NCBI RefSeq assembly: GCF_035975855.1
Contig: NZ_CP109055.1
Coordinates: 10,106,001 to 10,170,000, forward strand
Origin: Streptomyces sp. NBC_01304
GTDB taxonomy: Bacteria; Actinomycetota; Actinomycetes; Streptomycetales; Streptomycetaceae
Direction of reading: 5' to 3'
DNA length: 64,000 bases
A program made the position numbers and the translations under genes. Below, piece after piece: positions 2,163 through 57,398 of the stretch (positions are counted from its first letter, which is position 1; every line of letters begins with the position of its first letter). The notes under the pieces were generated by a model that did not search any database, was not told where the DNA came from, and was given only the letters and a program-made list of their open reading frames with translations.

Positions 2163-3949
2163 GCCCCGGCCCCGGCCGCCGCTGTACGGAAGGGCAGGCG
2201 CTCGGCGTGCTCGCCCTTCTTGCCGATGTTGAAGGAGGCCACGGGCCGGTGATAGCCCATGACCCGCGTCCACACCTCGCAATCCCCGCCGCACTGGGGG
2301 CAGTTGGCGTGCTCGCCGCTCAGATAGCCGTGCTCGGGGCAGATCGAGAAGGTCGGGGTCACCGTCAGGTACGGCAGCGAGAAGCGCTCCAGGGACCGGC
2401 GCACCAGCTCGCGGCAGGCCGTGGCATCGGAGAGGCGCTCCGCCAGGTACAGGTGCAGCACCGTGCCGCCGGTGTACTTGCCCTGCAGCTCGTCCTGCAT
2501 CTCCAGCGCCTCGAACGGGTCTTCCGTCCAACCGACTGGCAGCTGCGAGGAGTTGGTGTAGTAGGGATTCTCGTCCGTGCCCGCCTGGAGGATGCCGGGG
2601 AAGCGGCGCCGGTCCTCCTTCGCGAAACGGTAGGTGGCGCCCTCGGCCGGAGTCGCCTCCAGGTTGTAGAGATGCCCGGTCGCCTCCTGGAACGCCACCA
2701 TGCGCGCCCGTACGTGATCGAGCAGGCGGACGGCGAGGGCATGGCCCTCGGGCGCGGTGATGTCGTACGCGTCGTGCGTGAAGTTGCGGATCATCTCGTT
2801 GATGCCGTTCACGCCGATGGTGGAGAAGTGATTGCGCAACGTCCCCAAGTAGCGCCTGGTGTACGGGTACAGGCCGCCGTCGATCAGCTCCTGGACGGTG
2901 ACCCGCTTGATCTCCAGGCTCTCGCGCGCAAGGTCGAGGAGACCGTCGAGAGCCGCGAACAGGCCGCGCTCGTCGCCGGCGTGCAGATGCCCAAGGCGCG
3001 CACAGTTGAGGGTGACCACCCCCAGGGAGCCGGTCTGCTCGGCGCTCCCGAAGAGCCCGTTGCCCCGCTTGAGCAGCTCGGTCAGATCCAGCTGGAGCCG
3101 GCAGCACATCGAGCGGATCATCCCGGGGCTCAGCTCGGAGTTGAGGAAGTTCTGGAAGTACGGCAGCCCGTACTTCGCGGTCATCGCGAACAGCCGCTCG
3201 GCGTTCTCGCTCTCCCAGGGAAAGTCCGCGGTGATGTTGTACGTCGGAATCGGGAAGGTGAAGACCCGCCCCGTGGCGTCCCCGGCCGTCATCACCTCGA
3301 TGTAGGCGCGGTTGATCAGGTCCATCTCCGCCTGCAGCTCCCCGTAGGCGAAGTCCGCCTCCTCGCCGCCGATCACCGGTATCTGCTCGCGCAGGTCCTC
3401 GGGGCAGGTCCAGTCGAAGGTGAGATTGGTGAACGGGGTCTGGGTGCCCCAGCGGGAGGGCACGTTGAGGTTGTGCACCATCTCCTGTACGCACTGCAGG
3501 ACTTGGTCGTACGTCATGGCGTCCTTGCGCACGTACGGCGCCATGTACGTGTCGAAGGAGCTGAACGCCTGGGCCCCGGCCCACTCGTTCTGCAGCGTGC
3601 CGAGGAAGTTGACGATCTGCCCGACCGCAGAGGAGAAGTGGCGCGGCGGCGCGGAGTCGATCTGGCCCGGCACGCCGCCCAGACCCTCGGCCAGCAGGGT
3701 GCGCAGGGACCAGCCCGCGCAGTAGCCCGCGAGCATGTCCAGGTCGTGGAGGTGGAGGTCGCCCTCGCGGTGTGCGCGGCCCACGGCCTGCGGATAGACC
3801 TGGTCCAGCCAGTAGTTGGCCACGACCTTCCCGGCGGTGTTGAGGACGAGGCCGCCGAGCGAATACCCCTGGTTGGCGTTCGCGTTGATCCGCCAGTCCC
3901 GGCGGTCCAGGTACTCGGTCACGGAATCCACGGCGTCGATCTGTGTCAC
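2159..3949 (-). CDS. nrdD: Class III (anaerobic) ribonucleoside-triphosphate reductase
   Basis: A 596-residue glycyl-radical enzyme reducing NTPs to dNTPs. Visible landmarks are SRWGTQTPFTNLTFDW, the thiyl-cysteine region VTLNCARLG, FSTIGVNGINEMIRNF, a C-terminal zinc ribbon (CPEHGYLSGEHANCPQCGG), and the glycyl-radical loop RVMGYHRP. It is shorter than E. coli-type enzymes (about 700 residues) because no ATP-cone is evident at the N terminus. The GTG at 3949 is preferred to more upstream codons: it follows GGGAGGG at 6 bp and leaves the riboswitch untranslated. nrdG overlaps its stop. Expression should fall when adenosylcobalamin is available. Confidence 0.92.
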   Translation of the reverse strand: MTQIDAVDSVTEYLDRRDWRINANANQGYSLGGLVLNTAGKVVANYWLDQVYPQAVGRAHREGDLHLHDLDMLAGYCAGWSLRTLLAEGLGGVPGQIDSAPPRHFSSAVGQIVNFLGTLQNEWAGAQAFSSFDTYMAPYVRKDAMTYDQVLQCVQEMVHNLNVPSRWGTQTPFTNLTFDWTCPEDLREQIPVIGGEEADFAYGELQAEMDLINRAYIEVMTAGDATGRVFTFPIPTYNITADFPWESENAERLFAMTAKYGLPYFQNFLNSELSPGMIRSMCCRLQLDLTELLKRGNGLFGSAEQTGSLGVVTLNCARLGHLHAGDERGLFAALDGLLDLARESLEIKRVTVQELIDGGLYPYTRRYLGTLRNHFSTIGVNGINEMIRNFTHDAYDITAPEGHALAVRLLDHVRARMVAFQEATGHLYNLEATPAEGATYRFAKEDRRRFPGILQAGTDENPYYTNSSQLPVGWTEDPFEALEMQDELQGKYTGGTVLHLYLAERLSDATACRELVRRSLERFSLPYLTVTPTFSICPEHGYLSGEHANCPQCGGDCEVWTRVMGYHRPVASFNIGKKGEHAERLPFRTAAAGAGA

Positions 3950-3986
3950 GTCGGCCCTCCCACGAGGCAGCACGGAGAATCGTCCG

Positions 3987-4008
3987 CACCGCGCGGGCAT
4001 GCGCGGTG
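3987..4008 (-). promoter_or_regulatory. Hairpin in riboswitch expression platform
   Basis: Directly 3' of the cobalamin aptamer the transcript has a perfect 8-bp stem, CACCGCGC/GCGCGGTG, around the 6-nt loop ATGCCC. No U tract follows, so it is more likely an antiterminator/sequestering partner or a factor-assisted terminator than a classic intrinsic terminator. It lies about 40 nt before the nrdD start. Confidence 0.5.
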
Positions 4009-4120
4009 GGTGGCCGGCAGGTATCGGGCTCGGGCCGCTGTGCGGTCCCACACCGTTGCGGGGCAGCCCCGGATTCCCACCGGGTTCCCTGTTGCCTCGG
4101 CGTGCGTACCCGGATGTACC
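4000..4120 (-). promoter_or_regulatory. Cobalamin (B12) riboswitch upstream of nrdDG
   Basis: The minus-strand leader contains the B12-aptamer hallmarks in order: GCAACAGGGAA, CCCGGTGGGAATCCGGGGC, CTGCCCCGCAACGGTG, and the B12-box-like GATACCTGCCGGCC (at 4016-4025 on the plus strand). These match the AdoCbl riboswitch consensus. The ends are approximate because the P1 stem was not folded. B12-controlled RNR leaders are known in Streptomyces, where cobalamin represses the class Ia genes while the B12-dependent class II enzyme works. Here the controlled genes are class III. Confidence 0.9.
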
Positions 4121-4148
4121 CGGACGTTCCGCCGAACCAGCTGCCGCA

Positions 4149-4196
4149 ACACTACATGTGGGGATCAGGGCGACATGCCGACACAAGATGGTGGGT
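4149..4196. promoter_or_regulatory. Possible tandem NrdR boxes upstream of nrdDG
   Basis: Two 16-bp matches to the NrdR-box pattern ACACwAtATwTtGTGT occur: ACACTACATGTGGGGA at 4149 and ACACAAGATGGTGGGT at 4181. Their starts are 32 bp apart, about three helical turns, as in known tandem NrdR sites. Both are imperfect in the right half. NrdR is the general RNR repressor in Streptomyces. The spacing supports the call; the base matches are only moderate. Confidence 0.45.
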
Positions 4197-4365
4197 GACG
4201 TTCGGCCCCGAGGGCGGGGCTTTGGTCCCGTCCGGGGGTGCCCGAGTGTTACGCGGAGGTGGCCTGCCGTGCGCGGGGCGGGCGCGGCCCGAGTGAGGCA
4301 GGGGCAACCGGGTCCTTACCGCACAGAAACCGTGCGGGGCAGGCCGGTTCGTAACGTCGTACGGT

Positions 4366-6417
4366 GTGATCCGCACGCAGCAGCCCCCCGCCAAGACGCC
4401 CCCCACCCGGACGCCCGGCTCGCAGGTGCCCGCCACGCAGGCGCTCGCCACACCACCCGCGCGCCCGGCCCGACGGCATCGGCCCCGCACGCGCTCGCTG
4501 CCCGCCCTGCCCGGCTGGGGCTCCATCCGCGGCCGGGTCGCGATCGTGCTCGCCGTGCCCACCTGCCTGCTCCTCGTCGTGACCGGCCTCGGCGTCGCCG
4601 ACCGGGCCGCCGACTGGTCCGCGGCGCGCGAGACCGCGGGCCGCGTCGACCTGGTCCTGAAGGCGCAGGGCCTCGTCCGTGAACTGCAGCGCGAACGCGG
4701 CCTGACCAACGGCCTGTTGGGCGGCGCCGGACAGTATCGCGACGACGTCTCGGCGCAGCGCAACCGCACCGACCGGGCCCGCCTAGCCTTCGAGGCCCTG
4801 CTCGCCGCGGGCGGCGCGGGTGCCGACACCGCCGGTGCCGCGGCGGATGCGCTCGCGCCGGTCACAGCTCTGGGGGCGGTACGCGCCCACGTCGACGACG
4901 GCAGCGCGGACAAGGCCCCGACCCGGACCGCGTACACCAAGGCGATCGAGGGGCTGATCGGCGCCGCCGCGGCCGAACCGGTCCGCGGCGACCGGGCGCT
5001 CGCCGACGCGATGGGCGCCCTGACCGCCCTCGCCAAGGCCACCGAGGCGGTCGCCCTCGAACGGGGCCTGCTGAATGGGGTGTTCGCGGCCGGCCGGTTC
5101 AAGGGGGAGGAGTTCCTCGACTTCACCGAGGTGCGCGCGGACCGCCTCGCCTTCCTGCGGCAGTACGCGGACCTTGCCACCCCCGACCGCACCGCGGCCC
5201 TCGACGCCGCCTTCGACGGCCGCGCCGCCCGCACCGCCACCGGCCAAGAACGGCAGGCCGAGCGCGGCGCCGACGGATCCCGCCTCACCGTGGACCCGGC
5301 AAGCTGGTGGGCCTCGATGACCACGCTCGTGGATCAACTCCACGACGTACAGCGGCAGATCGGCGGCGAGGCCCGGGCGCGCGCCGACCGGCTCGGCGAC
5401 GATGCCACCGCTCAGCTCGGCGGATTCATCGGGCTCGGCGTGCTGATCCTCGCGGTGGCGACCGCCCTCGCGCTGCTCTCCGCCCGCTCGATCACCCGGC
5501 CGCTCGGCGCACTCGCCGACGAGGCCGACACCGTGGCCCGCGCCGGGCTGCCCGCCGCGGTCGCCCGCATCCAGGACGCCGGTGCCGACGAGGACATCTC
5601 CGTACGTACGTCGTCCGAAGTGCCCGACAACGCCCGGGAGTTCACCCAGCTCGCGGCCGCCCTGCACAACGTGGAGCGCACCGCCCTGCAGCTCGCCACC
5701 GACCAGGCGGTGCTGCGCCGCAACAGCTCCGAGTCGCTGGCCGGCCTGGGCCGCCGCAACCAGGCACTGCTCTCCCGCCAACTCCGGCTGATCACCACCC
5801 TGGAGAGCCAGGAGGTCGACCCCGACGCGCTCGGTGAGCTCTTCGAGCTGGACCATCTGGCCACCCGGATGCGCCGCAACGCCGAGTCGCTGCTCGTGCT
5901 CGCGGGGGAGGAGTCGCCGCCGCGGACCTGGTCCGGCCCGGTGACGGCGACCGAGGTGGTGCAGTCGGCGATCGCCGAGGTCGAGCAGTACCAGCGGGTG
6001 CGCGTGGTCGAGGTGCAAGGCGGTCTGATCCGCGGCCGGGCGGTGGCGGAGCTCGCCCATCTGCTCGCCGAACTCATCGAGAACGCCCTGGTCTTCTCGC
6101 CGCCCTCGCACCCCGTCGAGATCCACGGCTGGCGTGACGCGGGCGAGTACTGCCTCGCCGTCGTCGACCGCGGCGCCGGGATGAGCGCCGACGAACTGGC
6201 CCGCTCCAACGCCCGGTTGACGGGCCGGGACACCTATCTCGTCGCCCCCACCCGCCATCTCGGCCACTTCGTGGTCGGCACCCTCGCGACCCGCCTCGGA
6301 GCCCAGGTCGAGCTGCGGACCACGGGCGGTGAGGGGGAGGGCGCCGGCGTCACGGCCTATGTGGCCCTGCCCGCCGCGCTGCTCCACGACCGCCGGGAAT
6401 CAGTCCGGCCCGGGTGA
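4366..6417 (+). CDS. NIT-domain (nitrate/nitrite-sensing) membrane sensor histidine kinase-like protein, CvnA type
   Basis: A 683-residue membrane sensor: Pro-rich cytoplasmic tail (1-50), TM1 (about 57-78), an extracellular NIT-like helical domain with the duplicated RERGLTNG / LERGLLNG motifs, TM2 (about 352-372), HAMP, a DHp-like segment with LFELDHLATRMRR, and a HATPase domain with N-box LAELIENALVF and DRGAGMS. This is the architecture of CvnA sensors in Streptomyces conservons. The usual partners (roadblock, DUF742 and small GTPase genes) do not follow; the next gene is an acyl-CoA dehydrogenase. The start is a GTG without a clear ribosome site. Signal unknown. Confidence 0.85.
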   Translation: MIRTQQPPAKTPPTRTPGSQVPATQALATPPARPARRHRPRTRSLPALPGWGSIRGRVAIVLAVPTCLLLVVTGLGVADRAADWSAARETAGRVDLVLKAQGLVRELQRERGLTNGLLGGAGQYRDDVSAQRNRTDRARLAFEALLAAGGAGADTAGAAADALAPVTALGAVRAHVDDGSADKAPTRTAYTKAIEGLIGAAAAEPVRGDRALADAMGALTALAKATEAVALERGLLNGVFAAGRFKGEEFLDFTEVRADRLAFLRQYADLATPDRTAALDAAFDGRAARTATGQERQAERGADGSRLTVDPASWWASMTTLVDQLHDVQRQIGGEARARADRLGDDATAQLGGFIGLGVLILAVATALALLSARSITRPLGALADEADTVARAGLPAAVARIQDAGADEDISVRTSSEVPDNAREFTQLAAALHNVERTALQLATDQAVLRRNSSESLAGLGRRNQALLSRQLRLITTLESQEVDPDALGELFELDHLATRMRRNAESLLVLAGEESPPRTWSGPVTATEVVQSAIAEVEQYQRVRVVEVQGGLIRGRAVAELAHLLAELIENALVFSPPSHPVEIHGWRDAGEYCLAVVDRGAGMSADELARSNARLTGRDTYLVAPTRHLGHFVVGTLATRLGAQVELRTTGGEGEGAGVTAYVALPAALLHDRRESVRPG

Positions 6418-6447
6418 AGGGACCACGCCATCGCCCTTCCGCATTAC

Positions 6448-6461
6448 TGGAACAAGTTCTA
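6448..6461. promoter_or_regulatory. KstR-type operator TnnAACnnGTTnnA
   Basis: TGGAACAAGTTCTA matches exactly the KstR consensus TnnAACnnGTTnnA known from mycobacterial and rhodococcal cholesterol genes. It lies 46 bp before a FadE26-like acyl-CoA dehydrogenase gene. A second exact match sits at 59155 in front of the FadD19/EchA19-like cluster. Binding by a KstR orthologue is inference; no kstR gene is in the window. Confidence 0.7.
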
Positions 6462-6506
6462 CTGTGTGCGCCGTCGTCCAAGGGTCAGCAACAGCCTGGA
6501 GGGGCC

Positions 6507-7685
6507 GTGCACCTCGAATACACGCCTGAGCAGCAGCAGTTGCGCGCCGAGCTGCGTGCCTACTTCGCCGAGCTGGTGCCGGACAACGCCTACACCCGGT
6601 ACGCCGACCCCGCGGCCCAGAAGCAGTTCTACCGCGACACGATCCGCAGGCTGGGTGCGGACGGCTGGCTCGGTGTCAGCTGGCCGAAGGAGTACGGGGG
6701 CCGCGGTCTGACCCCGATGGAACAGTTCATCTTCTTCGACGAGGCGGCGCAGGCCGGGGTCCCGCTGCCGATCATGGGGCTGAACACGGTCGGGCCCACG
6801 ATCATGCAGTTCGGCAGCGAGGAGCAGAAGTCGTACTTCCTGCCGAAGATCCTCTCCGGTGAGATCGACTTCGCGATCGGCTACAGCGAGCCCGACGCCG
6901 GCACCGACCTCGCCGCGCTCAAGACCCGCGCCGTGCGCGAGGACGACGAATATGTCGTCAACGGCCAGAAGATCTGGACCACCAACGGCGACACCGCCGA
7001 CTGGGTGTGGCTCGCGGTGCGCACCGACCCCGACGCCCCCTCGCACAAGGGCATCACCATGCTCCTCGTGCCGACGTCCGACCCCGGCTATTCCTGCACC
7101 ATCATCAACACCCTTGCCTCGCACGACACCACGGCCAGCTACTACGAGAACATCCGCGTCCCCGTCTCGCGCCGCGTCGGCGAGGAGAACAAGGGCTGGC
7201 GCCTGATCACCAACCAGCTCAACCACGAGCGCGTCACCCTCGCCGCCCACGGCACGATGGCCATCCGCGCCCTGCACAACGTGCAGCGCTGGGCCGCCGA
7301 GACCAAGCTCGCCGACGGCCGCCGCGTCATCGACCTGGGCTGGGTCCGCCAGCGCCTGGCCATGACGCACACCAAGCTGGACGCGATGAAGCTCCTCAAC
7401 TGGCAGATGGTCAACGCCGTCCAGAACGGCACCCTCACCCCTCAGGACGCCTCCGCCGTCAAGGTCTACGGCTCCGAGGCCCGCCGCGACGCGTACGCCT
7501 GGCTGATGGAGGTCGTCGGCTCGGCGGGACCCCTCAAGGAGGGCTCGGCCGGGGCGGTGCTGCACGGCGAGTTGGAGCGCGGCTACCGCTCCGCCGTCAT
7601 CTTCACCTTCGGCGGCGGCAACAACGAGATCCAGCGCGAGATCATTTCGTGGATCGGCCTTGGGATGCCGCGGGTCCGCCGCTGA
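6507..7685 (+). CDS. Acyl-CoA dehydrogenase, FadE26/ChsE4-like
   Basis: A 392-residue FAD-dependent acyl-CoA dehydrogenase. Family signatures are IGYSEPDAGTDLA (125-136), VNGQKIWTT, NQLNHERV, and the C-terminal FTFGGGNNEIQREII. From memory the sequence resembles mycobacterial FadE26 (ChsE4) closely, including YTPEQQQLRAELRAYF, GWPKEYGG-like and YYENIRVPVSRRVGEENKGW stretches. ChsE4 pairs with ChsE5 (FadE27) to dehydrogenate sterol side-chain CoA esters. No partner subunit gene is adjacent. I chose the GTG at 6507 because GGAGGGG precedes it and family members start there. The upstream KstR-type box supports a sterol role. Confidence 0.85.
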   Translation: MHLEYTPEQQQLRAELRAYFAELVPDNAYTRYADPAAQKQFYRDTIRRLGADGWLGVSWPKEYGGRGLTPMEQFIFFDEAAQAGVPLPIMGLNTVGPTIMQFGSEEQKSYFLPKILSGEIDFAIGYSEPDAGTDLAALKTRAVREDDEYVVNGQKIWTTNGDTADWVWLAVRTDPDAPSHKGITMLLVPTSDPGYSCTIINTLASHDTTASYYENIRVPVSRRVGEENKGWRLITNQLNHERVTLAAHGTMAIRALHNVQRWAAETKLADGRRVIDLGWVRQRLAMTHTKLDAMKLLNWQMVNAVQNGTLTPQDASAVKVYGSEARRDAYAWLMEVVGSAGPLKEGSAGAVLHGELERGYRSAVIFTFGGGNNEIQREIISWIGLGMPRVRR

Positions 7686-53551: not shown

Positions 53552-53639
53552 GGCATGTGCACCAATTGATCGGCCCGCCGCTTCCCGCTGTCGGCGAAAG
53601 CCGTTGCCCGGCCCGCCGTCCGCCTGTGAGGATCGACGC

Positions 53640-55205
53640 ATGCCTACCTTCCGTGCCCCCGACGGCACCGAGCTCGCCTACCACCTGCGGGGCACGGGCG
53701 AGCCGCTGATCTGCCTGCCCGGCGGGCCGATGGCCGCCTCCGCGTACCTGGGTGACCTGGGCGGGCTCTCCGCGCACCGGCAGCTGGTCCTGCTCGATCC
53801 GCGCGGCACCGGCGACTCCGCGGTGCCGGACGACCCGTCGACGTACCGCTGCGACCGTCAGACGGACGATGTGGAGGCGCTGCGCGCACACCTCGGCCTG
53901 GAACGGATCGATCTGCTCGGTCACTCCGCCGGAGGGAGCCTCGCCCTCCTGTACGCGGCGGCGCACCCGGAGCGACTGCGCTCGCTCGTCCTGCTCACGC
54001 CGGGCCTGCGGGCCGTCGGCATCAGGCCGGACGAGGAGGAGTGGGAGCGGACGGTGGGGCTGTTCGCGGACGAGCCCTGGTACGCGGAGACCCGCGCGGC
54101 CATCGCGGAGTTCGGCCCCGGTACGCCGCTCGAAAAGATCCTCCAGGTGGTCGCACCGCTGTCGTACTCCCGATGGGACGCGGCCGCCCGGGCGCACAAC
54201 GACGCCACGACGCGCAACTGGGAGGCGGCAGGCGGCTATTACGCGGGGGAACTCCCGGACCCGGCCGCGGTCCGCGCCGCGCTCGCGACGCTCGCCGCAC
54301 CCGTCCTGGTCGTCGCGGGCGACCACGACAGCGGTGTGACCCCGGGCAGCGCCGCCGCGCTGGCGGAGCTCTTCCCGCGCGCCGAGCTCGCCGTGCAGGC
54401 GGGCGCCGCCCACCACCCGTGGCTGGACGACCCGGGCGCGTTCACCCGCACGATCGCCGCGTTCCTCGCCCCCGACGTGGACACCGTGACGGTCGACGGC
54501 ACCCGCCTCGCGTACCGCACCTGGGGCGAGCCGGACGCGCCTCCCGTCGTCCTGCTGCACGGCCGCTGCGGTTCGAGCCTCGACTGGGCGGAGCTGGCCC
54601 CCGAACTCGCCGAGACCCGCCGCGTCTACGCGGTCGACCTCGCCGGACACGGACTGAGCGACTGGCACCCGCACAACGCGCACAACCTCCACGACCCGCA
54701 CAACGAGCCCAGCGCGCCCGGCCGTTACTCCCTGGCCGGCTACCGCGACCAGCTGGCCGGGTTCCTGCGCGCCCTCGGCCTCGAAGGCGCCACGGTCATC
54801 GGCCACTCCATGGGCGGCGCCGCGGCCTGGCTGCTCGCCGGCCAGGAACCGGACCTGATCGGCCGCCTGGTCCTGGAGGAGGCCCCGCCGCTGTTCCCGC
54901 TCGACCCGCCGCGCCCGCCCGCCGAACGCACCGACGAGGAGCTCGACTTCGACTGGCCGGTGATCGACGGCATCAACGCGGACCTGAACGCCCCGGACCC
55001 CGGCTGGCACGCACTGCTCCCGCAGATCGCCGCGCCCACGCTGCTCGTCGGGGGCGGACCCGGCGGCCCCTTCGACCAGGACCAGATCGCCTGGATGGCC
55101 ACACGCATCCCGAACGCCCGGCTCGCCACCATCGAGGCGGGGCACCTCGTGCACCAGAGCAGGCCCGTCGAATTCCTGGCCGCGGTGGAGGAGTTCGGCC
55201 TCTGA
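53640..55205 (+). CDS. Tandem alpha/beta-hydrolase fusion protein
   Basis: A 521-residue protein with two complete alpha/beta-hydrolase domains. The first (1-280) has LLDPRGTGDSAVPDD and nucleophile GHSAGGSLALLYA (serine near 96), with AGAAHHPWLDDP holding the histidine. The second (about 282-520) has VVLLHGRCGSS, nucleophile GHSMGGAAAW (serine near 390) and EAGHLVHQ. A loop rich in His/Asn (WHPHNAHNLHDPHNEP) lies in domain 2. No signal peptide. The substrate is unknown; each half resembles proline iminopeptidase/esterase hydrolases. Confidence 0.85.
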   Translation: MPTFRAPDGTELAYHLRGTGEPLICLPGGPMAASAYLGDLGGLSAHRQLVLLDPRGTGDSAVPDDPSTYRCDRQTDDVEALRAHLGLERIDLLGHSAGGSLALLYAAAHPERLRSLVLLTPGLRAVGIRPDEEEWERTVGLFADEPWYAETRAAIAEFGPGTPLEKILQVVAPLSYSRWDAAARAHNDATTRNWEAAGGYYAGELPDPAAVRAALATLAAPVLVVAGDHDSGVTPGSAAALAELFPRAELAVQAGAAHHPWLDDPGAFTRTIAAFLAPDVDTVTVDGTRLAYRTWGEPDAPPVVLLHGRCGSSLDWAELAPELAETRRVYAVDLAGHGLSDWHPHNAHNLHDPHNEPSAPGRYSLAGYRDQLAGFLRALGLEGATVIGHSMGGAAAWLLAGQEPDLIGRLVLEEAPPLFPLDPPRPPAERTDEELDFDWPVIDGINADLNAPDPGWHALLPQIAAPTLLVGGGPGGPFDQDQIAWMATRIPNARLATIEAGHLVHQSRPVEFLAAVEEFGL

Positions 55206-55314: not shown

Positions 55315-55668
55315 ATGGACTCTGCGGAAGAACCGGAACAGCGCGCGCCGGGGGAGCCGACGCTTCCCTTCTGGGTGTCGTACGACGAAGCGAGCGAAAA
55401 GGAATCCGGCGACTCGATGGGCCTCTTCGGCGACAGCGGAGAAGCGGCGCTGCGACAGGTGCCGCTGGGCCCGCTGCGCAAGAACCTGACGGAGGCGGTG
55501 GACGCGCTGCAACAGCTGTTCGCCGATGTCGCGGCGCGCGACGGGGCCCTTCCGCTGCGGGAGGCCCAGCTGTCGTTCCAGGTGACCGCCGGCGGCGGGG
55601 TGCAGTTCATTGGCACCGCGGCGCAGATGGCGGGCAGCCGCGGCATCGTCCTCGTCTTCAGGCAGTGA
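55315..55668 (+). CDS. Pepco/Trypco-like peptidase-co-occurring small protein
   Basis: A 117-residue protein with the pattern LGPLRKNLTEAVDALQQLFADV, LPLREAQLSFQVTAGGGVQFIGTAA, GSRGIVLVFRQ. This matches my recollection of small effector-associated domains (Pepco) that accompany caspase- or trypsin-like peptidases in bacterial conflict systems. The caspase-like gene follows after 13 bp, so the two form an operon. Function is probably regulation of, or a switch for, the peptidase. Assignment is by pattern and context. Confidence 0.65.
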   Translation: MDSAEEPEQRAPGEPTLPFWVSYDEASEKESGDSMGLFGDSGEAALRQVPLGPLRKNLTEAVDALQQLFADVAARDGALPLREAQLSFQVTAGGGVQFIGTAAQMAGSRGIVLVFRQ

Positions 55669-55681
55669 CCGGGCGCCTGCC

Positions 55682-57163
55682 ATGGGGCTGTACCGGGCCC
55701 TGCTGATCGGGGCCAGCGACTACGAGATGAGAGGCGTCCAGCCTCTTGGGTTCATTCCCGGCGACCTGGCGCGCCTGGGCTCCATCCTGCGGACGCACGG
55801 CTTCCACGATGTGCAGGTGCTGGCCGCGCGAGAGGGCGGCAGGCAGGTCTCGGCCAACTACATCAACGGCGGCGTCATCGGATTCCTCCGCCGGGCCCGC
55901 CGCGGCGACACCCTGTTCATCCTCCTGAGCGGACACGGCGTGCACGCCAGGGGCCAGGACTACCTCGTGCCCGAGGACATCGACGAGGACGTCCACCCCT
56001 TCGAGTCGGGCTGCGTGCCGATCGACTGGCGGCGCCACCTCGACGAGACACCCGCCGAGCACGTCGTCTTCCTGATCGACGCCTGCCGGGAGGGAATCGA
56101 CCAGGACTCGATGGGCGTGAGCGGGGTCAGGGAGTGGGGCCGGCAGAAGATCGGCGCTGCGCTGCGCCGCAAAGTGGCCTATCTGTACGCCTGTTCACCG
56201 GCGCAGCTGTCGCTGTTCGTACGCGGCGAGGAGCAGGTGCGCGACGGCCTCGATCACGGCACGCTGCCCGGTGAGTCCTTCAGCCTCTTCTCTCGGTCGG
56301 TGTCGGATGTCGTCGCCTCCCGGACCGGGGGTGAGCCGCTGGCCCTGGACGAGTTCGTCGAGGCGGTGCAGAACCGGGTGACGGAACTGCACCGGGCGTA
56401 CCGCAAGAAGGGGCGGGCACAGCTGCTGCGGGTCGTCACGGACATTCCGGCTGACGGGTTCTTCTTCCTGCCCGGGGTGGAGGGGCCTGCCGTCGCGGCT
56501 CCGCGACCGCCCGAGGCTTCGCCGGTGGTGGCGCCGGACGACACGGACACCGTCGTACGTGACGGCGCGGCGATGAGTCTACTGGCGGAGCCCGGACCGT
56601 CACTGGCGGAGCCCGGCCCATCCCTGGAGGAAGCCGGCGCACCGCCATGGGGGCTCGGCCCGCCGCCGGCGATGGCGCAGACCGTTCGGTCGGCTCCACC
56701 GCCGCCGCGGGACGCATCTGCTCCCGATGAGGTGGCGCCCGGACAGCCGCCCAAAACCGGGCGCCGCCGGTGGGTCAGGCGTGCTCTCATCGCCGTGGCC
56801 GTCCTGTTGGTCGTGCTGCCCCCGGCCGGGTTGTTCACCGCCTATCAGGTGACCCGGGACCAGTACTTCGTGGGTTCCCACGACCGGCACATCGCCATCT
56901 ATCGAGGCGTGCATGAGAAGGTCCTCTGGATCAGCTACTGGAAGCTGGAGAGGGACCACCCGGAGATCGAGCTCAAGTACCTCAACTCATACCAGCGTGA
57001 GTATGTCGAGGAGGCGCACACCGTCGGCAGCGTCGCCCAGGCCCAGATCACCGTGGACAGCTATGCCGTGCAGGTGTCCACGTGCAAGAAGATCGAGGCC
57101 GCAGGGATCGAGAACGCCAACCTCTCGAAGGAGGAGAAGGAGTTGGCGTACGAGTGCCCCTAG
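55682..57163 (+). CDS. Membrane-anchored caspase-like peptidase with PstP-like extracellular domain
   Basis: A 493-residue protein: caspase/metacaspase p20-like domain (1-250) with catalytic His in LLSGHGVH (H85) and Cys in LIDACREG (C135); a Pro/Ala-rich linker (280-360); one TM segment (about 365-388); and a C-terminal exterior part (390-493; QYFVGSHDRHIAIYRGVHEKVLW, then VDSYAVQVSTCKKIE). That outer part resembles the extracellular domain of actinobacterial PP2C phosphatase PstP. The caspase domain would be cytoplasmic. The TAG stop comes from a MITE-like element. Confidence 0.85.
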   Translation: MGLYRALLIGASDYEMRGVQPLGFIPGDLARLGSILRTHGFHDVQVLAAREGGRQVSANYINGGVIGFLRRARRGDTLFILLSGHGVHARGQDYLVPEDIDEDVHPFESGCVPIDWRRHLDETPAEHVVFLIDACREGIDQDSMGVSGVREWGRQKIGAALRRKVAYLYACSPAQLSLFVRGEEQVRDGLDHGTLPGESFSLFSRSVSDVVASRTGGEPLALDEFVEAVQNRVTELHRAYRKKGRAQLLRVVTDIPADGFFFLPGVEGPAVAAPRPPEASPVVAPDDTDTVVRDGAAMSLLAEPGPSLAEPGPSLEEAGAPPWGLGPPPAMAQTVRSAPPPPRDASAPDEVAPGQPPKTGRRRWVRRALIAVAVLLVVLPPAGLFTAYQVTRDQYFVGSHDRHIAIYRGVHEKVLWISYWKLERDHPEIELKYLNSYQREYVEEAHTVGSVAQAQITVDSYAVQVSTCKKIEAAGIENANLSKEEKELAYECP

Positions 57164-57354
57164 GGCCTGTCCGGCGGATCTTCGCGGGCCCACGACGCCT
57201 GGCACGCGCCCCCAGCCTCCGGCCGGGGGTGCCCCCGCTCGCCGCACGCCCGAATCACCCAAGTACGTCCAGTACGAGGGCGATCCGGGCGCACGCCGAG
57301 AGCACGCACCAGACGCCGCGGGCTCTTCCGCGAAGATCCGCCGGACACGCCCTA
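57161..57354. repeat. MITE-like palindromic element, copy 2
   Basis: 194 bp with 27-bp inverted ends (57161-57187 and 57328-57354; 26 of 27 match) starting TAGGGCCTGTCCGGCGG. The interior shares CCCAAGTACGTCCAGTACG and CACGCCGAGAGCACGCACC with copy 1 at 18284. It lies between convergent genes, could act as a terminator, and its first three bases are the caspase stop. Confidence 0.85.
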
Positions 57355-57398
57355 GCGAAAACCGACCGACGTTGGCCTGCCCGCCACAGCGACCCGCC

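Follow-up and report, generated by a model that had tools for sequence, protein, structure and literature searches.

Positions 55315..57163 of the window, the whole 64,000-nucleotide stretch of Streptomyces DNA analysed here, carry a two-gene pair in which a small Pepco-domain protein is followed by a caspase that ends, beyond one membrane helix, in a PstP-type ectodomain. Comparison with related proteins revealed that this C-terminus is swapped within a single caspase family. Our best reading of the pair is a caspase that acts in conflict or suicide from a membrane tether, with a swappable tail that docks it at, or senses, a core machine of the cell. If right, this reading offers a concrete, sequence-level way into the question of how caspases in bacteria select what they protect, with tails that can be recognised as pieces of named host machines.

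Overall organization of the gene pair

The pair lies as the preliminary description had placed it, which re-reading of the coordinates in the window genome confirmed; the window sits on a contig of 10,658,997 bases, some 0.49 Mb from one of its ends, in an 11 Mb genome. The first gene (55315..55668, + strand) encodes a protein of 117 aa that matches the Pfam family Pepco (PF24393) with 60.3 bits against a curated cut-off of 27, making it a Pepco member, and hydropathy analysis found no membrane helix in it. The second gene (55682..57163, + strand) begins 13 bases beyond the stop codon of the Pepco gene, at a start codon whose position matches those of its relatives in the alignment, and encodes a protein of 493 aa. 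Pfam, hydropathy and homology divide this protein into a caspase domain, a linker, a membrane helix and a PstP-type ectodomain, all features below being on the + strand. The nearest relatives of both proteins come from Streptomyces sp. T-3 (90% and 88% identity), whose caspase is partial.

Peptidase_C14 is the sole Pfam domain detected in the second protein, where the caspase domain spans residues 1-265 (55682..56476). In a 91-row family alignment, the catalytic His85 (in the motif GHG, codon 55934..55936) is kept in 89/89 non-gap rows and the catalytic Cys135 (in DAC, codon 56084..56086) in 90/90. With the Pfam match, the His/Cys dyad and the caspase fold all present, the protein is by family a caspase-fold protease, and the caspase with this dyad that had been proposed earlier is upheld; its active site, named at the time as a point where the proposal could fail, is conserved in the relatives. 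The protein also matches the PADLOC model named caspase, with 32.8 bits, for which the model gives no cut-off. The caspase domain is followed by a Pro/Ala-rich linker (residues 266-360, 56477..56761), which is predicted to be disordered, with mean pLDDT values of 25-42 in ten-residue blocks over residues 271-360 of the structure prediction. Hydropathy analysis placed a single hydrophobic helix at residues 368-386 (56783..56839), in agreement with the membrane crossing suggested before. Because the motif RRRWVRR directly precedes this helix, the N-terminus is predicted to be inside, with the caspase in the cytoplasm and the C-terminus outside.

The C-terminal region is a PstP-type ectodomain

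Residues 390-493 (56849..57160), which follow the membrane helix, are homologous to Streptomyces PstP ectodomains, so that the PstP-like ectodomain of the preliminary description stands and the absence of homology by which it might have fallen is not observed. This tail matches the PstP of its own genome with an E value of 1.3e-11; tail matches were found in 24/25 genomes, and a PP2C domain is present in 23 of those 24 loci, on which grounds a chance resemblance was rejected. Like PstP, the protein combines a transmembrane helix with an ectodomain containing a conserved Cys pair, whereas the inner PP2C phosphatase of PstP is replaced by the caspase; Pfam detected no PP2C catalytic domain in the second protein, which is therefore not a PstP phosphatase. 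Cys468 (codon 57083..57085) and Cys492 (codon 57155..57157) are both invariant in 18 aligned proteins, Cys492 being the probable disulfide partner. The sensing of the cell envelope that had been attributed to the outer domain of PstP is not established. The tail folds confidently in structure prediction. Foldseek alone matched it to no known fold, no solved structure matched by sequence under E 0.9, and a search with the tail alone returned only the query itself among 47 candidates.

The ectodomain bears some resemblance to the C-terminal domain of BofC (Pfam PF08955), whose link to actinobacterial phosphatases was already in print in 2007; in Bacillus, BofC acts as a regulator of the SpoIVB protease (PMC12502668). 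Unlike BofC, the tail falls below the Pfam cut-off, and no BofC N-terminal domain was found. At its cut-off of 21 bits, the PF08955 profile matched neither the window protein (P0002), nor its tail, nor the PstPs scanned, and it gave 0 matches in the window genome in a search that detected the Bacillus subtilis control; 2/19 members were hit below the cut-off (P0006 with 20.4 bits and P0013 with 16.3 bits).

The PstP tail was likely captured from, or converted by, Streptomyces pstP. For comparison of the tails we used 18 PstPs, comprising that of the window genome, three from the family search (two of them from named Streptomyces) and 14 from other genomes; one further phosphatase (L036, of genome G026) was left out, the motif having missed its tail. 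The caspase tails are 43-80% identical to the best of the 18, and the window tail, which is 41-47% identical to the three PstPs from the family search, reaches 48%. Capture is suggested by P0011, a caspase identical in every residue to the one in genome G011, whose tail is closest to the PstP of the same genome (123/154, 80%, linker included). In most PstPs a low-complexity stretch separates the two Cys residues; P0011 keeps it, whereas 14/15 caspase tails lack it. The PstP of a different family (G033) reaches no more than 31% identity to those of Streptomyces. Against this origin stands the window tail itself, which is just 26% identical to its own genome's PstP (25/98 aligned; 35% over 88 by BLAST), a protein with an ectodomain that is itself divergent; a close mimic of the own PstP was rejected at this identity. 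The own PstP (L002, 400-1893) has an unusual ectodomain, with at best 39% identity to other Streptomyces PstPs, and lacks the second conserved Cys, the counterpart of Cys492, whereas its PP2C part and that of P0094 share 96% identity. The tail tree requires 5 label changes and is compatible with a single clade of caspase tails (p-AU 0.176). Of the 4 label changes in the caspase tree, one arises from P0003, which is incomplete and lacks the C-terminus. These trees do not show that the PstP tail was gained more than once.

The C-terminus is exchanged within one caspase family

The family consists of 91 caspase proteins, a few of them fragments (94 rows including the query, from which 3 phosphatases were removed), drawn from a search that scored the 7995 candidates sharing most words, in which distant relatives are under-represented. 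The PstP-type tail occurs in 15/91 of them. Among the others compared with Pfam, six proteins (P0076, P0079, P0080, P0081, P0084 and P0088) instead end in the DnaB-binding domain of DnaG, and P0087 (815 aa) joins the caspase to a DnaG core plus DnaB-binding domain, that is, to a nearly whole DnaG primase. These DnaG tail parts are 44-49% identical to the window genome's DnaG over 163-194 residues, and the DnaG part of P0087 is 45% identical over 525 residues. Other Pfam-assigned tails are iHD-CE (P0074, P0082), PQQ or WD40 propellers (P0048, P0072, P0064, P0046) and a Schlafen-type helicase (P0083); the tails of P0024 and P0039 gave a weak lectin-like match below the cut-off. Many other members carry a membrane helix and a tail without an assigned domain. 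Pepco is found upstream of both a P0080-type DnaG tail and the iHD-CE type (L046, L047). With DnaG-tailed and PstP-tailed versions both lying beside Pepco, tail swapping is directly testable.

Pepco and the caspase form a conserved but patchy module

The caspase is immediately preceded by a full Pepco gene in 12/16 distinct family loci (the window, L004-L015, L016, L046 and L047; L045 was left out, its caspase being identical to that of L005). At L008 a profile search detected a partial Pepco-like frame just upstream of the caspase (E 4e-6), and at three distant family loci (L013, L014 and L015) Pepco is absent by both tblastn and profile. Two genome surveys are less biased than this count. 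Among 41 genomes, Pepco was found in 5, all of the same genus, and 5/5 of these genes adjoin a caspase-clan peptidase (4 family caspases and 1 CHAT); conversely, a search of 25 same-genus genomes gave 4 family caspases, each of them next to Pepco. Since the adjacency holds when counted both ways, the Pepco-caspase pair is a conserved but patchy module, and the pairing with a Pepco-like partner that had been noticed at this locus recurs across genomes. At L018, a Pepco gene and a CHAT peptidase gene adjoin each other (195-1457 and 1336-1794), with CHAT in place of the caspase. One Pepco-caspase pair is carried on a Streptomyces plasmid (L016), where a gene for a WD40-repeat Ser/Thr protein kinase (2954-6694) lies upstream of the pair and an IS256 transposase gene lies downstream.

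Comparison with known systems

The closest known kin of the pair is the two-gene EACC1-caspase system, described as 'System 4' by Kaur et al. 2020 (PMC7159879), of which the main text is considered here. As in that system, a small constant 5' gene precedes a 3' gene with an N-terminal caspase and a highly variable, exchangeable C-terminus; in the EACC1 system, which is prevalent in actinobacteria, the C-terminus is sometimes a transmembrane helix plus ectodomain (PMC7159879). The two differ in the 5' gene, which here encodes Pepco without a transmembrane helix, whereas the EACC1 gene has a conserved one. The second protein scored 44 bits against the NCBIfam model caspase_w_EACC1 (NF047832), whose cut-off is 140, and the 5' gene holds only Pepco, with no transmembrane helix and no EACC1 detected; membership was therefore rejected. 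For EACC1-caspase systems, membrane-associated sensing and autoproteolytic activation of the caspase have been proposed, and a decoy use of inactive enzyme domains is raised for such systems in general (main text of PMC7159879).

Pepco resembles Trypco1 (trypsin-co-occurring domain 1, Pfam PF19493) in being a small partner of peptidases, with the difference that its partner here is a caspase; weak Trypco1 matches below the cut-off were seen in 2/6 Pepco proteins scanned (E 0.022 and 0.035). Craspase (type III-E CRISPR, caspase-like TPR-CHAT), as far as the sources covered describe it, is likewise a caspase-clan protease in bacterial immunity. Unlike Craspase, the window pair has no recognised CRISPR gene beside it, and CHAT adjoins one distant Pepco only (L018).

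The preliminary description had regarded the arrangement as not described, which holds in part. Pepco is a Pfam family and the two-gene caspase plan with an exchangeable C-terminus is known from EACC1 systems, as are the caspase itself and the PstP-BofC link. Our searches, which covered mainly openly available journal papers on Pepco, EACC1, and BofC with PstP, found no paper on Pepco function or on a caspase-PstP ectodomain fusion, and none on a caspase-DnaG fusion in the Pepco and EACC1 literature; the words PstP, BofC, DnaG and primase are absent from the main text of PMC7159879.

Proposed mechanism and alternatives

In the fuller model that we tentatively put forward, at somewhat short of an even chance, the two constant elements would be the caspase, held at the inner membrane face, and Pepco as its partner or regulator, and the exchangeable C-terminal module would set both the location of the caspase and what triggers the response. 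As the window module appears to be a copy of the PstP ectodomain, the caspase would probably dock, outside the membrane, where PstP works, namely at the PstP/PknB growth and division machinery. A disturbance at this site (phage, toxin or envelope antibiotic) is predicted to make the caspase cluster or leave Pepco, upon which it would cut itself, Pepco or other targets, and the hyphal compartment would be stopped or killed. Docking, trigger, substrates and cell death are all inferred. The domain assignments, the invariant dyad, the Pepco adjacency, the tail swapping, the PADLOC caspase match and the parallel with the EACC1-caspase system argue for this model, and the patchy occurrence (5/41 genomes) fits an accessory system. 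Against it are the fast-evolving window tail (48% at best to the 18 PstPs), the three of 16 loci without Pepco and the lack of a convincing defence gene among six flanking proteins compared with PADLOC. If the model holds, a PstP ectodomain reused on a protease may be a tool for finding what that ectodomain binds.

That two different tails derive from core machines makes attractive a reading in which this caspase family parallels, in bacteria, the plant immune receptors that carry integrated decoys. The tail would be the captured docking part of a host machine, serving as bait (the PstP ectodomain for the growth and division complex, and the DnaB-binding part or nearly all of DnaG), so that an attacker touching that machine would trip the caspase and the cell would die. 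We consider this rather unlikely; tethering for targeted cleavage accounts equally well for such tails. A targeted regulatory protease, neither suicide nor immune device, would use the tail only to deliver the caspase to the PstP site or the DnaB helicase and would cut a component there in development or stress. The family name marks the DnaG-type tails as docking domains, the PstP-type tails may be such domains too, and within the limited reach of the searches the named matches and loci belong to Streptomyces and near relatives; the patchy spread (5/41 genomes) and tail turnover are easier to reconcile with an accessory conflict system than with a conserved role in development, and we judge this role improbable.

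It is doubtful that the ectodomain is a mere membrane anchor, neither sensing nor docking, with the signal arriving via Pepco or the cytoplasmic side. The fast evolution of the tail, the long branches of P0002 (2.8 changes per column) and P0013 in the tail tree and the many relatives with other membrane-anchored tails would fit an anchor, but both the Cys pair and the pattern of the fold have been retained, the PstP-type tail recurs (15/91) and its fold is predicted confidently. Release of an effector has been proposed for the analogous variable C-termini of EACC1 systems (main text of PMC7159879). Here the caspase would cut loose its C-terminal module, which might act, for example, as a PstP ectodomain or DnaG fragment with a dominant-negative effect. 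A DnaB-binding piece released in this way might block replication. The PstP ectodomain, however, is already outside, nothing obvious is gained by cytoplasmic cleavage and Pfam detected no catalytic domain in it, which leaves release distinctly unlikely here. Decay of the window copy, its ectodomain having lost its partner and the gene being on the way out, would agree with the long tail branch of P0002 and is highly improbable, as the frame, catalytic residues, transmembrane helix and Cys pair are intact and the caspase domain is not long-branched (0.073).

Genomic neighbourhood

For the tail-addressed conflict caspase that we favour, an anti-phage function is a guess by kinship, because comparison of the six flanking proteins with PADLOC gave one weak match (an alpha/beta hydrolase to the TAP-like model, 19.6 bits) and no phage record in the collection searched holds the second protein. 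Carriage by phages or plasmids as a rule was rejected, given that absence and the one Streptomyces plasmid pair.

Directly upstream of the Pepco gene, on the same strand, a single protein contains two tandem alpha/beta-hydrolase domains (53637-55205). As hydrolases of this kind accompany caspases in another system, this gene was considered as a third component and rejected, the 13 loci L004-L016 yielding a single match, at the edge of L009 (34-38%). Downstream, a 196-base element (57160-57355) starts at the caspase stop codon, between convergent genes, and consists of 28-base inverted ends (96% complementary) with 140 bases between them; it resembles a MITE-type insert. Its end motif has 2 exact copies in the window and 2 more elsewhere with one mismatch.
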